Part shown: positions 175 through 60,705 of the stretch, piece after piece
Position numbering within the stretch: the stretch's first letter is position 1
Layout: each line of letters starts with the position of its first letter
Assembly (NCBI GenBank): GCA_009268125.1
Contig: WBOU01000009.1
Span: forward strand, 160,195 to 224,194
DNA: 64,000 nucleotides
Reading direction: 5' to 3'
From: Chloroflexia bacterium SDU3-3
Lineage (GTDB): Bacteria > Chloroflexota > Chloroflexia > Chloroflexales > Roseiflexaceae
Program-made: the position numbers and the translations under genes
Notes under the pieces: generated by a model
The model's database searches: none
Seen by the model: only the letters and a program-made list of their open reading frames with translations
What the model was told of the DNA's origin: nothing

Positions 175-585
175 CACCATTTTATCGCATCCCCACGCCA
201 TTTCGCCCCTTCGTATCCTCGCGTCTTCGTGGTGAATCGGTTTCCCTGCGTTCTCTTTTGTCTCTTGGTGTCTTGGAGCCTTGGTGGTAAACGAATCGGC
301 GCTCTGTCGAGAACGCAGAAGCCCTGCGCGTCCCAGTCGCGCATATTGCCCGTATCCAGAGGCACATGCTACAATAGCCACAAAATGGCGTACCGAGCGC
401 CTTACGCGCCAGCCGATGCCAAATACCCCACGCACGCCCAACGCCTGGACGATGGACCGATAACTGCATAATTGCACCCAGGCACCGGCGCGCCGTAGGA
501 TCGGCTGCGGTACAAGACGAAAACCAGCGGCGCGCGGCCAATGGCGGCCCCACGCCGACACAGAGCGAGTGAGTGAATCGAAACG
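175..585. other. Intergenic region upstream of cmk
   Basis: No convincing gene lies here. Positions 217-330 hold a copy of a dispersed repeat built from a 'cttcgtggtgaa / cttggtggtaaa' phrase followed by 'gagaacgcag'; related copies are at 37519-37694 and 60605-60668. A promoter-like element is at 367-375. Short reading frames here overlap each other on both strands and have no recognisable content or ribosome-binding site. Confidence 0.7.
367..375 (+). promoter_or_regulatory. Extended -10 element, possible cmk promoter
   Basis: TGCTACAAT matches the extended -10 form (TGn plus TAyAAT) found before many genes in this window. It lies about 210 bases before the cmk start, which would leave a long leader. 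No clear -35 box is seen. Confidence 0.4.
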
Positions 586-35116: not shown

Positions 35117-37213
35117 TCAGTGTGAGATGTGCGCCTTCTTCTGGGCCTCGACGAGGGCGGCCAGCAGGTGGGCAGGCACATCGTCGTAGTGGTCGAAGCG
35201 CTGCGAGAAGTGGCCGCGCCCCTGGGTCATCGAGCGCAGGTCGGTAGCGTAGCGCAGGATCTCGGACAGCGGCACGTGGGCGGTGATGTGGGTGTGGCCA
35301 TTCTCGGGCAGCATGCCCAGCACGCGCCCGCGCCGCGTGGTGATGTCGCCCATGATGTCGCCGGCAAACTGATCGGGGATGTTGATCTCCAGCTGGTAGA
35401 CCGGCTCCAGCAGCGCGGCACCGGCCTTGAGCGCGGCCTGCTTGAAGGCCTCGTGCCCGGCGATCTGGAAGGCGATGTCCTTGCTGTCCACGGGGTGCAT
35501 CTTGCCGTCGAACAGCTCGACCCGCACATCGATCATGGGATTGCCAGTGATCACGCCCTCCTGCATGGCGGCGCGCACGCCCTTTTCAACCGAGGGGATA
35601 AACGAGCGGTCGATCACGCCGCCGACGATGGCGTTGACAAACTCCAGCGGGTCGGCGCGGTTCGGGTCGGTGGGCAGCGGCTCGACGCGGATGGTGACAT
35701 CGGCGAACTGGCCAGCGCCGCCCGACTGCTTCTTGTGGCGGTACTGCGCCTCGGCCTTGCCGCGAATGGCCTCGCGGTAGGCCACCTTGGGCAGCTCGAT
35801 ATCGACATCGACATCGAACTTGTGCTTCATGCGCTCGGCCAAGATCTGCAGGTGCGACTCGCCCAGGCCGGAGAGCAGGGTGCCGCCCTGACTGTCGCGG
35901 CTCAGGGTGATCGAGGGGTCCTCCTCGATCATGTGCTGCAGCGCGACGCCCATCTTGTCTAGATCGTTGCGGGTGTGGGGCTTGATCACGGCGGTGAACT
36001 CGACGGGCGGGAAGGCGATCGGGGCTAGGCGCAGCGGGCGGTCGAGCTGGCAGAGCGTGTCGCCGGTGAGCGCGTCGGGCAGCTTGGTGGCCGCGCCGAT
36101 GTCGCCCGCCACCAGCTCGGTGGTGGGGATCTGCTCTTTGCCGCGCAGCAGTACCAGCTGGCCGATGCGCTCTTCCTTGCCGGTGCGGGCGTTCATCACG
36201 GTGGTGTTGGCGGAGATCTTGCCGCTGTAGACCCGCAGGCACGAGACCTTGCCGTAGCGGTCGGAGATGGTCTTGAAGACCATCGCGCCTAGCGGCTGGG
36301 CGGTGCTGGGGCTGATGGCCACCGGCTTGCCCGTAGCTGGCTCGCTGGCCACGATGCTGACGCGGGCGGCGGAGGGGATGCAGTCGAGGATGCCATCCAG
36401 CAGCTGGGCGGTGCCCACGGCCTGGTCGGCGGCGCCGCACAGCACCGGCACGATCGAGCCGTTGGCGATGCCCGCGCGCAGGCCGCGCTGCAGCTCCTCG
36501 GGGGTGAGCGCGTCGGCCCCACCCTCAAGGTACTTTTCGATCAGGTCGTCGTTGGTGGCGGCGATCTTGTCGATCAGCTTCTCGCGCCACTCCAGCTCTA
36601 GCTCGCGGTGCTCGGCGGGGATGTCGGCGTCGACGAACGAGCCGTCGTGGGCGGGGGCGATCATCCAGGCGCGCTGGCGACGCAGCGAGATAATGCCCTT
36701 CAGCTCGCGCTGCGCGCCGATCGGGATCTGCAGCGGGATGACCGAGGCATCCAGCAGCTGCTGGGCCTGCTCGACGGCGCGGAAGAAGTTGGCGTTCTCG
36801 CGGTCGAGCTTGTTGATGAAGAGGATGCGCGGCACGCCCAGCCGCACGGCCTCGGCCCAGGCGGCCTCGGTGCCGACCTCGACGCCGCCAGCGGCGTCGA
36901 TCACGATCACCGCGCCCTCGACCACGCGCATGGCTGCGGCCACATCGCCTGCGAAGTCGGCGTAGCCGGGCACGTCGATCAGGTTGATCTTGTCGTCTTT
37001 CCACTCGATAGGGGCAACGGAGAGATTGATGGAGAGGTGTCGCTTCTGCTCATCCGGGTCGTAATCGCTGACGGTGTTGGCATCCTCGACTCGTCCAGCG
37101 CGGGGTATAGCCTTGGCGGTGAGCAGCAGCGATTCGAACAGGGTCGTCTTCCCGCATCCGCCATGGCCAAAAAGCCCAACGTTGTGGATACGTTCAGTGC
37201 CATAGGTTCGCAT
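35117..37213 (-). CDS. Elongation factor G-like GTPase (FusA2 type, altered GTPase motifs)
   Basis: The 698-residue product aligns over its whole length with EF-G: GTPase domain, domain II, and domains III to V ending 'GRGHFSQRFDHYDDVP'. G1 is 'GHGGCGKTT' (16-24) where EF-G has AHIDAGKTT. The switch I segment 'EQKRHLSINLS' (55-65) replaces the usual ERGITI. G3 is 'DVPGYADF' (80-87), so the catalytic His of DTPGHVDF is Tyr84. G4 'NKLDREN' is intact. Such EF-G2/FusA2 proteins accompany a normal EF-G elsewhere in the genome and probably have a special role on the ribosome. Tandem ATGs are present; the second (37213) is best spaced from AAGGAGG. An 8-bp hairpin lies in the leader (37285-37305). 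Confidence 0.9.
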   Translation of the reverse strand: MRTYGTERIHNVGLFGHGGCGKTTLFESLLLTAKAIPRAGRVEDANTVSDYDPDEQKRHLSINLSVAPIEWKDDKINLIDVPGYADFAGDVAAAMRVVEGAVIVIDAAGGVEVGTEAAWAEAVRLGVPRILFINKLDRENANFFRAVEQAQQLLDASVIPLQIPIGAQRELKGIISLRRQRAWMIAPAHDGSFVDADIPAEHRELELEWREKLIDKIAATNDDLIEKYLEGGADALTPEELQRGLRAGIANGSIVPVLCGAADQAVGTAQLLDGILDCIPSAARVSIVASEPATGKPVAISPSTAQPLGAMVFKTISDRYGKVSCLRVYSGKISANTTVMNARTGKEERIGQLVLLRGKEQIPTTELVAGDIGAATKLPDALTGDTLCQLDRPLRLAPIAFPPVEFTAVIKPHTRNDLDKMGVALQHMIEEDPSITLSRDSQGGTLLSGLGESHLQILAERMKHKFDVDVDIELPKVAYREAIRGKAEAQYRHKKQSGGAGQFADVTIRVEPLPTDPNRADPLEFVNAIVGGVIDRSFIPSVEKGVRAAMQEGVITGNPMIDVRVELFDGKMHPVDSKDIAFQIAGHEAFKQAALKAGAALLEPVYQLEINIPDQFAGDIMGDITTRRGRVLGMLPENGHTHITAHVPLSEILRYATDLRSMTQGRGHFSQRFDHYDDVPAHLLAALVEAQKKAHISH

Positions 37214-37518
37214 CATGTCCTCCTTGACGACGCGAAGTCGCCCACGTAGAGCCAACGGGCAGTCCCAGAGGAGTCGAACGGACCCGAGCAGCGGCCCTGC
37301 TCGGCTCCCGGCGGTTTGTCACGTTGGTTCCAATACCGCTCTCCACTGTTCCGTGGGGATTAAGGGTATGTTATCGAAGTTTGCGGGCGGGGTCAATAGC
37401 CAAAAAAAGGCGCTGTGTTGTGGTTTCAACACCATGGGGTGGCGGTGGGTTGCGGAAGCAACACAGGCGGCGGCGGATGCACAGATTGCGCGTTCGGGCA
37501 AGTTGCCCTGTCTATGAG
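37214..37518. other. Leader region of the EF-G-like gene, no gene found
   Basis: CCGAGCAG (37285-37292) pairs with CTGCTCGG (37298-37305) in the 5' leader of the EF-G-like mRNA. A run of A7 at 37403-37409 and scattered Ts are present, but no promoter could be assigned with confidence. A T-arm-like 'GTTCGACTC' on the minus strand does not fold into a tRNA. Confidence 0.5.
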
Positions 37519-37694
37519 TAGGGTTTATGCGTTCTCGACAGTTCGCCAAATCTTTTACCACCAAGACACCAAGACACCAAGGAACAACGGGAACCACTCC
37601 CCACGAAGGCTTGAAGATTCGAGGAAGAAAGCGATAACACCTGCGCGTCTTCGTGGTGAAAAATCCCTGGCGAATCAAGAACGCATAGACCCTA
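37519..37694. mobile_element. MITE-like element with long terminal inverted repeats
   Basis: The element is 176 bp. Its left end TAGGGTTTATGCGTTCT and right end AGAACGCATAGACCCTA are inverted repeats, and the similarity continues inward for about 45 bases to a 'ttcgcca...accac' block on both sides. It is flanked by GTCTATGAG (37510-37518) and GTCTATGGG (37695-37703), a probable 9-bp target-site duplication with one change. It encodes no protein. Parts of it recur at 217-330 and 60605-60668. A non-autonomous transposon is the simplest reading. Confidence 0.7.
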
Positions 37695-37744
37695 GTCTAT
37701 GGGTATTAGGGAGGAAGCAGGAGGGCTAGGCCGCCCACGGGTGA

Positions 37745-38010
37745 TTGGGTGCATGCCCTGCGCAGGCGGCACCCGTGGGCCTGCCCCTCGGAACCCCGCC
37801 AGGGGGCATCGCCCTCACATGGTGTCACTTTTATGGTTTGCTGAGGCATTTTGACGAAAAGGTGCGTTGCCGTTGATTCGTCAGGGTGCGCCTTCGTGGA
37901 ATAGTGGGTGTGTTTGGATGGTGGTGGATGCCCTGTGCGGGCGGCACCAAGGGCTCCGCGCCCTTGGAACCCCGCCAGGGGCATCGCCCCTCACATGGTG
38001 TCACTTTGGA
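37745..38010. repeat. Two tandem copies of the hairpin repeat family C
   Basis: Copies at about 37751-37822 and 37927-38006 share 'gccctgygcrggcggcacc', a stem-loop, 'ggaaccccgccagggg-catcgcccc' and the end 'cacatggtgtcactttt'. The inner hairpin keeps its pairing in the second copy by paired changes (CCAAGGGC with GCCCTTGG). Two more copies are inside the composite repeats at 38107-38193 and 45513-45597. Confidence 0.75.
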
Positions 38011-38020
38011 GTGGTTCTGC

Positions 38021-38292
38021 GTCGGCCCGACCGTGGGCAATGCTTGAAGTGTTGCCCGGTCGGGTCGACCGGTTGCGGCTTCGATGAAGGTGATCCTTTT
38101 GTTTGGTGGGTGGATGCCCTGCGCGGGCGGCGCCGAGGGGCCAGCCCCTCGGAACCCCGCCAGGGGGCATCGCCCCCTTGGAACCCCCAATTTGTAGCCT
38201 TCCTATGCCGAAATCCGGCGGCTGATGTGTGTGCATATGGCCAGTGTGCACGAGCGGCACCTTCGCCGTATGGGTCGGGTGGGATAGTGCGC
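38021..38292. repeat. Composite intergenic repeat, copy 1 (families B, C, D)
   Basis: Three blocks follow in fixed order: cruciform B (38021-38090), hairpin block C (38107-38193) and block D (38222-38292, 'gtgcatatggcc...caccttcgccgtatggg'). The same order and nearly the same spacing recur at 45422-45697. B has outer arms GTCGGCCCGACCG and CGGTCGGGTCGAC with one mismatch, and an inner stem ending GGCAA/TTGCC. Confidence 0.8.
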
Positions 38293-38558: not shown

Positions 38559-38920
38559 AATAAAAGATCTTTTTCGACGCTTGTATGTTGAATAGACAGA
38601 TAAAAGCATGTCTTCTGCTTGAGCGAGCGTATTCTGGATGAAGATAGTGCTTCGGGCATGGGCGATATGATATTTTCTATCTATCATGCATTCATCTATC
38701 GTGTAGAGATCACCCGCTACGATAAAAATGCGCGGCCTTGCCCATCCAGCGAAGGCGCGTGTAGCTGGCGGCTGGCCATGATCAAGCCCGCAGCGACGAG
38801 GGCTTGGCGCGGAGGAAGGCAGATTTTCCCCAAGATCGTGTCGGCGCTCCGTGCTATCACATCTTCATCACCGTCGCGCCTTCGCGGTATTCGTCCCCTT
38901 TGCGGCTGTGTAGAGCGGCC
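38559..38920. other. Intergenic region before the SDR gene
   Basis: No gene was recognised. Positions 38732-38790 ('ttgcccatccagcgaagg...ctggcggctggcc') resemble 55310-55366 in another repeat-rich gap. A 'cgccttcgcggtattcg' phrase near 38876 belongs to the same short dispersed family seen near 57728. Confidence 0.5.
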
Positions 38921-38950
38921 TTGCCAAGAGCGATTCGGCAGGCCTATAAT
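38921..38950 (+). promoter_or_regulatory. Strong promoter directly at the SDR start, probable leaderless transcript
   Basis: TTGCCA (38921-38926) and TATAAT (38945-38950) are separated by 18 bases. Only six bases lie between the -10 box and the ATG at 38957, so transcription should begin at or next to the start codon. No ribosome-binding site is present. Confidence 0.7.
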
Positions 38951-38956
38951 CGGCCC

Positions 38957-39727
38957 ATGAACATACAAGGAAAAGTTGTGGTAATCACCGGCGCTTCGTC
39001 GGGGATCGGGGCGGCGGCGGCGCGGGCGTTTGCGGCGGCGGGGGCCAGGCTGGTGCTGGCGGCGCGCGGCGAGCAGCAGCTGCGGGCCGTGGCCGAGGAG
39101 ACGGGCGGGCTGGCGGTGCCGACCGATGTGGCCAGCCGCGCCGACACCGATGCGCTGGTGGCGCGGGCCTGCGAGGCCTTCGGCGGGGTGGATGTGCTGG
39201 TGAACAACGCCGGGGTGGGCATCGCGTCGCCGGTGGGGGCGATCCGCGAGGAGGACATGCTGGCGGCGCTGCGGGTGAATGTGCTGGGGCCGCTGGCGCT
39301 AACCCAGGCGGCGCTGCCCGCGCTGCGCGAGCGGGGCGGGCAGGTGATCTTCGTGTCGTCGGTGGTGGGGCTGCGGGCGCTGCCCTACCTGGGCGGCTAC
39401 GCGGCCACCAAGGCCGCGCTCGACCGCCTGAGCGAGGCGCTGCGGGTGGAGCTGCGGGGCAGCGGCGTGGCGGTGACGCTGGCGCGGCCCGGCACCACCA
39501 GCACGGGGTTTGCGGGCAGCAGGCTGGGCAGCGGCCACGAGCGGCGGCGCATGAGCAGCCGCGCCGTGCCGCCCGAGCAGGTGGCGCGGGCGCTGGTGCG
39601 CGCGGCGCAGCGGCGGCCCCGCGTGGTCTACGCGGCCTTCGGCGATCGGCTGAACATCCTGTTTAGCCTGCTGACGCCGAGCCTGACCGACCGGCTGCTG
39701 GGCTGGGCGTTCCAGTGGGAGGCGTAG
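38957..39727 (+). CDS. Short-chain dehydrogenase/reductase
   Basis: The 256-residue product is a classical SDR, an NAD(P)-dependent oxidoreductase of unknown substrate. It shows the cofactor motif 'TGASSGIGAAAARAF' (T-G-x3-G-x-G), 'NNAGVG' for the NNAG element, the catalytic Ser in 'VIFVSSVVG' and the catalytic YxxxK in 'YLGGYAATKAALDRL'. 'LARPGTTSTGF' follows as the PG motif. The promoter touches the start codon, so it may be translated from a leaderless mRNA. Its 3' end overlaps the convergent phosphatase gene by about 65 bases. Confidence 0.92.
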   Translation: MNIQGKVVVITGASSGIGAAAARAFAAAGARLVLAARGEQQLRAVAEETGGLAVPTDVASRADTDALVARACEAFGGVDVLVNNAGVGIASPVGAIREEDMLAALRVNVLGPLALTQAALPALRERGGQVIFVSSVVGLRALPYLGGYAATKAALDRLSEALRVELRGSGVAVTLARPGTTSTGFAGSRLGSGHERRRMSSRAVPPEQVARALVRAAQRRPRVVYAAFGDRLNILFSLLTPSLTDRLLGWAFQWEA

Positions 39728-59761: not shown

Positions 59762-60529
59762 ATGAGCATCATCGATATCGACGAGGTACGCGGCTGGGCC
59801 GAGGCGGCGGGCAGGCTGGCGCTGCAGCACTTCAACCACGTCGCAGGGCATCGCAAGGCCGACCGCAGCTATGTGACCGAGGCCGACGTGGCCATCGAGC
59901 GCCAGCTGGTGGCCCAGATCAGCGCGCGCTACCCCGACCACGGCATCCTGGGCGAGGAGCAGGCCAAGACCAACCTCGACCGCGAGTTCGTGTGGGCGGT
60001 CGACCCGATCGACGGCACCGCGTCGTTCGTGGCCGGGCTGGGCAGCTGGTGCATCTCGATCGGCCTGGTGCGCAACGGGCAGCCCTACTTCGGTCTCATC
60101 CACATGCCCACGCTGGGCGACACCTACCACGCCGCCGTGGGCGAGGGCGCGTTCCTGAACGGCCAGCCCATCCATGTGAGCCAGCCCGACGCGTGGGAGG
60201 GTGAGACCTGGCTGGCCACCCCGGCCACGCTGCACCGCAGCTTCGAGCTGGACTTCCCCGGCAAGACTAGGGTGCTGGGCAGCACGGCGGCCCAGATGTG
60301 CTACGTGGCCAGGGGCAGCGCCCTGGCCGCGCTGCTGGTGAACGCCTACCCGTGGGATGTGGCCGCCGGCCTCGTGATCGTGCAGGAGGCCGGCGGGGCG
60401 GTGGTGCCGCTCGACCCGGCCACGCCCACCGGCGGCACCGCGCTGGATGGCGGCTGGCTGCACCAGCCCGTGCTCGTGGCCGCGCCCGATCAGATCGCGC
60501 CGCTGCGCCAGGCCTTCCGCAGGCGCTAG
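59762..60529 (+). CDS. Inositol monophosphatase family protein
   Basis: The 255-residue product has the metal-binding set of IMPase-like phosphatases: E65/E66 in 'ILGEEQAK', D81 and D84 in 'VDPIDGTASF', and the C-terminal 'AYPWDVAAGLVIVQEAGG'. It could hydrolyse inositol phosphate, fructose-1,6-bisphosphate, histidinol phosphate or PAP; the sequence alone does not decide. It is a single cytoplasmic gene. Confidence 0.92.
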   Translation: MSIIDIDEVRGWAEAAGRLALQHFNHVAGHRKADRSYVTEADVAIERQLVAQISARYPDHGILGEEQAKTNLDREFVWAVDPIDGTASFVAGLGSWCISIGLVRNGQPYFGLIHMPTLGDTYHAAVGEGAFLNGQPIHVSQPDAWEGETWLATPATLHRSFELDFPGKTRVLGSTAAQMCYVARGSALAALLVNAYPWDVAAGLVIVQEAGGAVVPLDPATPTGGTALDGGWLHQPVLVAAPDQIAPLRQAFRRR

Positions 60530-60604
60530 GCTCTATACGTTCTACACAGCCTTTACGCTAGGGCAAACGGGCAACGCTGGAAGCAGGGGCATTGTGAACA
60601 GGGG

Positions 60605-60668
60605 CTTTTGTTCCTTTGTGTCTTGGTGGTAAACACGTTCTGCCGGACGAGAACGCAGAGACCCTGCC
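60605..60668. repeat. Dispersed repeat related to the MITE-like element
   Basis: The phrase 'tgtcttggtggtaaacacg' and, after a short spacer, 'gacgagaacgcagagaccc' match the inner and outer parts of the 37519-37694 element in reverse orientation and of the repeat at 217-330. Confidence 0.7.
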
Positions 60669-60705
60669 CCAGGCGTTCCTAGCCGGGCCAAACCGCATCA
60701 GACTA

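Follow-up and report, generated by a model that had tools for sequence, protein, structure and literature searches.

The 176-bp element at positions 37519–37694 (plus strand) of the window, the 64,000-nucleotide stretch of DNA analysed here, is probably an old MITE whose ends were moved by a DDE transposase of the ISAs1 type and whose core words were taken up. This complete copy, read from the sequence, is bounded by 17-bp terminal inverted repeats (TIRs) that can be seen directly, TAGGGTTTATGCGTTCT on the left (37519–37535, plus strand) and AGAACGCATAGACCCTA on the right (37678–37694, plus strand), and its two sides pair imperfectly, with short breaks, across some 45 nt each. Folding gave about 42 pairs across the outer ~50 nt per side, with free energies of −65.3 (z −7.8) and −76.7 kcal/mol (z −5.7) for the two strands. 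The interior carries a core word of the CCAAG type with three period-8 units, CCACCAAGACACCAAGACACCAAG (37558–37581, plus strand), a second of the CGAAG type, CCACGAAGGCTTGAAG (37601–37616, plus strand), and an inverted word of the CGAAG type, CTGCGCGTCTTCGTGG (37641–37656, minus strand). No convincing coding capacity was found in the element from the list of open reading frames: those that overlap it, such as 37319–37678 (minus) and 37415–37729 (plus), extend through it and its flanks. The site is a gap of ~1.5 kb between divergent genes, which by inspection of their translations are elongation-factor-G-like (35117–37255, minus) and short-chain-dehydrogenase-like (38804–39727, plus). Adjoining the MITE, at 37720–38195, are three copies of a different repeat (GCCCTGCGCGGGCGGC...GGAACCCCGCCAGGGGCATCGCCCC), a 16-mer of which, TGCCCTGCGCGGGCGG, occurs 34 times in a 2.05-Mb sample of the genome.

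Related sequences were detected at no fewer than 45 places in the genome (6.76 Mb, 51 contigs; taken for Chloroflexota by inspection), at least that many being counted with 40 of 474 candidates scored. The family search used a profile built on 23 copies and covered 2.0 Mb from five large contigs plus the window, or roughly 30% of the genome, and further contigs contributed additional loci; this yielded 26 distinct full-length copies, the window element among them, of 153–193 bp with a mean pairwise identity of 73% and the consensus TAGGGTCTATGCGTTCTCGACAGAGCGCCGATTCTTTTACCACCAAGACTCCAAGACACCAAGG...CCTTCGAGCCTTCGCGTCTTCGTGGTAAAGAATCTTCGGTGAATCAAGAACGCATAGGCCCTG. Such an identity fits the expectation for an old family, and the MITE family is old, decaying, and probably immobile. 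Its interior words are more conserved than its TIRs, which is not predicted for a simple dead MITE, though detection bias may contribute. Two other high-copy families in the 2.05-Mb sample, CCCATGCGGCGAAGGT (54 occurrences) and TTGATGGCCATATGCACGAACACC (~30–53), are unrelated to the MITE. The first-pass annotation had described a non-coding, MITE-like element of 176 bp with inverted ends of about 45 bases and a 9-bp target duplication with one change, belonging to a family widespread in this genome; the 17-bp TIRs, the full-length copies recovered in the family search, the family-wide duplications, and the empty site of a sister copy described below bear out that description.

Two further members lie inside the window, and the fragments that had been seen at 217–330 and 60605–60668 both proved real. 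The second of these is the right end of a 140-bp TIR copy (60527–60666, plus strand) that has the same ends and a different left interior, which it has in common with the sequence at C4:205350, and a possible target duplication, CCGCAGGCG (60517–60525) and CCCCAGGCG (60667–60675). The other is the only end retained, on the minus strand, by a copy that spans 188–326 (minus; TIR at 310–326), its opposite end being replaced by core-word sequence. Allowing up to 4 mismatches made the TIR pattern unspecific, with 39 matches against 56 for its reversed control; matches were therefore accepted only when they were close and backed by structure. At the start of the window, positions 1–175 hold a tandem array with a short unit of ~20–25 bp (CGGTAGCGCGCCAGACGACCA...).

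The flanks of the window element, GTCTATGAG on the left (37510–37518) and GTCTATGGG on the right (37695–37703), match at 8 of 9 positions, and their match score of 8 is reached by unpaired family flanks in ~0.1% of cases. Because the GTCTATG of this flank is also similar to TIR bases 5–11, the pair is weak if taken singly, and the claim of a target-site duplication rests on the family test. There, each left flank was set against the right flank of the same copy and against those of the other copies: the mean score was 5.3 for paired flanks versus −0.25 for unpaired ones, and the paired mean was never reached in 20,000 permutations (p ~5e-5), supporting target duplications of 9–10 bp. Five of the 31 rows in this test repeat copies that had been counted once, matched on the second strand; they inflate it slightly but do not create the signal. 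Exact 10-bp duplications were found as CCTAGCGCTA, GGTATCGGCG, AGGTAGATAC, CGTCGGGCGC, and ATTCCTCAAT, and an exact 9-bp one as CTCGCCACA.

A sister copy, at locus L028, preserves the record of its own insertion. It occupies the extreme end of a gene, which it entered within the final 10 coding bases: the reading frame there closes with ...MYLPIVGR and reads ...CTGCCGATCGTCGGGCGC|TAG, the stop TAG coming from the MITE tip (L028 1501–1503), while the 10 bases before the element, CGTCGGGCGC, recur after it and are followed by another TAG. In the relative G010 (locus L395), the orthologous gene, 75% identical in DNA, lacks the element, ends ...LYLPVARR-TAG, and reads ...CTGCCGGTGGCGCGGCGCTAGCCC. 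The comparison with a relative that the first-pass annotation had proposed thus produced an empty site, solely for the copy at L028; the relatives examined included no genome of the same genus, and no paralogous empty site within the genome was convincing. Common ends, 9–10 bp duplications, the empty site of the sister copy, dispersed copies, and the lack of a frame of its own are all shown, and they support the MITE interpretation.

The MITE interior consists of period-8 words of the form CCACSAAG-ACNCSAAG-ACNCSAAG, inverted across the element around a loop and occurring in two versions, CCACCAAG-ACNCCAAG-ACNCCAAG or CCACGAAG-ACNCGAAG-ACNCGAAG. The variable letter is nearly always constant within a word (93 CA-CA-CA, 46 GA-GA-GA, and ~30 mixed). 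The genome contains 431 exact three-unit core words, compared with 0 for a reversed-pattern control, and of 399 further genomes sampled from the phylum only 4 have any. Most core-word clusters, 137 of 181 in 2.05 Mb, have no adjoining MITE end, and many of these are direct arrays. With genes taken from a simple home-made caller, TIR-less arrays facing a stop codon start a median of 15 nt after it, and 69% lie within 25 nt versus 31% expected. In tandem intergenic regions the strand of the words followed no simple sense rule, 24 running with the genes and 44 against them.

The same hairpin reaches far beyond this genome. Among the matches listed, it was intact in Methylobacter, Thiohalophilus, Geothrix, other Holophagaceae, and further Acidobacteriota, and also in Verrucomicrobiales, Deltaproteobacteria, Rhodospirillales, SAR324, Mariprofundaceae, and Chloroflexi; it is present in high copy in some bacteria and absent from their relatives. 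These cross-phylum hairpins lack the MITE ends, and in 121 of them direct duplication in the flanks was not above chance; they show a mild tendency towards stop codons, with 44% no more than 40 nt away versus 33%. In one orthologous Methylobacter spacer the hairpin is intact in SV96, decayed or variant in four relatives, and absent from the other readable ones; these differing states indicate that it turns over. That spacer (L331–L346) holds different palindromes in different species (the core hairpin, a GTAGGAGCGGCTTTAGCCGCG hairpin, and others) or is short, and is a hot spot for repeat turnover. Host-specific outer inverted repeats around the core in other phyla were considered and dropped, the Verrucomicrobiales flank being the end of a paralogous gene. 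Searches for vectors of the core returned two weak matches among plasmids, both on Rhizobium rhizogenes plasmids, and no phages; core stretches numbered 43 among 2.9 million viral contigs. One viral contig (L393, IMG/VR, 17854 bp) carries four core words in two inverted pairs. Rfam gave no relevant match to the element, and a literature search for core-word strings found no relevant paper among those covered. We regard the MITE and its core as two things, because the first shows DDE-type movement with duplications and the second occurs across phyla without either the ends or the duplications.

As for what moved the MITE, the genome has one decayed ISAs1 copy (L281), covering the first 124 of 314 positions of model NF033564 with one TGA, and this copy begins CAGGGCAAACGCATTATGAATC at the matching distance from its frame. 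ISAs1 copies free of internal stops were found with the same model in relatives from the same family (G003, G013, and G004). One of the ISAs1 elements, at L283, has the ends CAGGGCCAACGCATTAT and an exact 10-bp duplication, GCATGCTTGC; others in relatives end in CAGGGCTTACGCATCTA (L282) and TAGGGCAATCACATCTAA (L289). The end form of the MITE, CAGGGCCTATGCGTTCT, equals the L283 end at 13 of 17 positions, with equal duplication length, and its tip and AYGCRTT block recur in L282, in the decayed L281, and partly in L289. Within the genome, neither an intact transposase with exactly the MITE ends nor an autonomous ISAs1 or other element with identical ends was found, so we infer an ISAs1 origin rather than assign membership. 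From sequence likeness, the source transposase was likely of the ISAs1 family. That first reading was right about the MITE and its duplication; the type of transposase and the cross-phylum interior word had escaped it. An origin from some other DDE family that makes 9–10 bp duplications (IS4, IS256, ISLre2, or others) is unlikely by comparison. It would fit with no autonomous copy having identical ends, and the length of the duplication alone does not single out ISAs1; against it, the CAGGG tip and AYGCRTT block, at equal spacing, are common to the relatives' ISAs1 and the genome's own decayed one, and, in a search for the source that covered PF01609 and ISAs1, PF01609 transposases were rejected since the ends at three of their loci do not match.

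Two explanations that dispense with a DDE transposase fare worse. The element could be an extragenic palindrome of the REP kind that a RAYT (Y1) transposase has mobilised, its duplication-like flanks due to chance, as would suit a palindromic, intergenic sequence with hundreds of core words whose cross-phylum hairpins lack target duplications; yet the genome has only two Y1 genes, with no core words near, and both adjoin a gene that reads as TnpB-type by inspection, the IS200/IS605 layout. In core-rich genomes, a clear core hairpin appeared in the fetched flanks of 1 of 30 Y1 loci, and that one ~1 kb off, so Y1 mobilisation was rejected for the core. For the TIR-bearing copies it is refuted by their significant 9–10 bp duplications and the empty site, and we consider this explanation as a whole extremely improbable. 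Scarcely better is a host regulatory hairpin, a terminator or stabiliser of mRNA 3′ ends repeated by chance, with ends that are part of the RNA structure. The very stable fold and the clustering of TIR-less arrays just after stop codons would agree with such a role, but TIRs with target duplications require transposition, and the window copy is flanked by divergent genes and does not follow a stop codon, with no T run behind it and no match to known RNA families. Moreover, left and right ends were no more alike within a copy (12.4 of 17 positions) than between different copies (12.3), which gives no sign of maintained end pairing. We judge this very unlikely.

The likely account remains an old MITE moved by an ISAs1-type transposase. 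A DDE transposase, with ISAs1 as its likeliest family, would have recognised the ends 5′-(T/C)AGGGYCTATGCGTTCT and inserted the MITE with 9–10 bp of target duplicated, presumably acting in trans; the source transposase has probably since decayed, leaving a family that is no longer mobile. The MITE probably took up its period-8 words from an independent genomic repeat family, and insertions are probably tolerated thanks to its hairpin and its position between genes. The MITE is of an ordinary kind, for which the evidence is unusually clear: family-wide duplications, an empty site, and a likely transposase type. Of greater interest is the core, an 8-nt-periodic hairpin word in many unrelated bacteria with no carrier found. 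A bolder reading, which we put forward tentatively and consider somewhat improbable as it stands, is that the CCACSAAG word is a previously undescribed cross-phylum repeat with its own RAYT-independent means of spreading, preferentially sited just after stop codons, amplified to hundreds of copies here, and picked up as the exchangeable interior of an ISAs1-type MITE. If this were true, one repeat would travel both alone and inside a transposon; if the core has its own mechanism, it would represent a new route for small repeats between phyla, shaping the 3′ ends of genes.

Comparison with known systems places the two parts differently. ISAs1 insertion sequences (NF033564; L282, L283, and L289) share with the MITE the CAGGG/TAGGG tip and the TIR pattern YAGGGCNNAYGCRTY, and L283 also its 10-bp target duplication, whereas the MITE has no transposase gene, differs from them at ~4 of 17 TIR positions, and has an unrelated interior. 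The TIR-less core hairpins resemble REPs and REPINs with their RAYTs (PMC8266576, PMC3733652) as short, high-copy extragenic palindromes that are often near gene 3′ ends, but they have no RAYT beside them, their arms have a period of 8 nt, and the same word recurs in many phyla. Chunjie, a MITE of Geobacter uraniireducens with dozens of full and partial copies of 178–235 bp, is similar in its conserved TIRs and duplications, a likeness drawn from its description in a review (PMC10969869). BrickBuilt, a Porphyromonas gingivalis MITE with an internal minisatellite that was reported from one species, likewise has inverted ends, a tandem-repeat interior, intergenic placement, and tens of copies (PMC4596501); its unit is 23 nt long (PMC4596501), whereas the unit here is 8 nt, is inverted on the two sides, and forms a word that occurs independently in many phyla.
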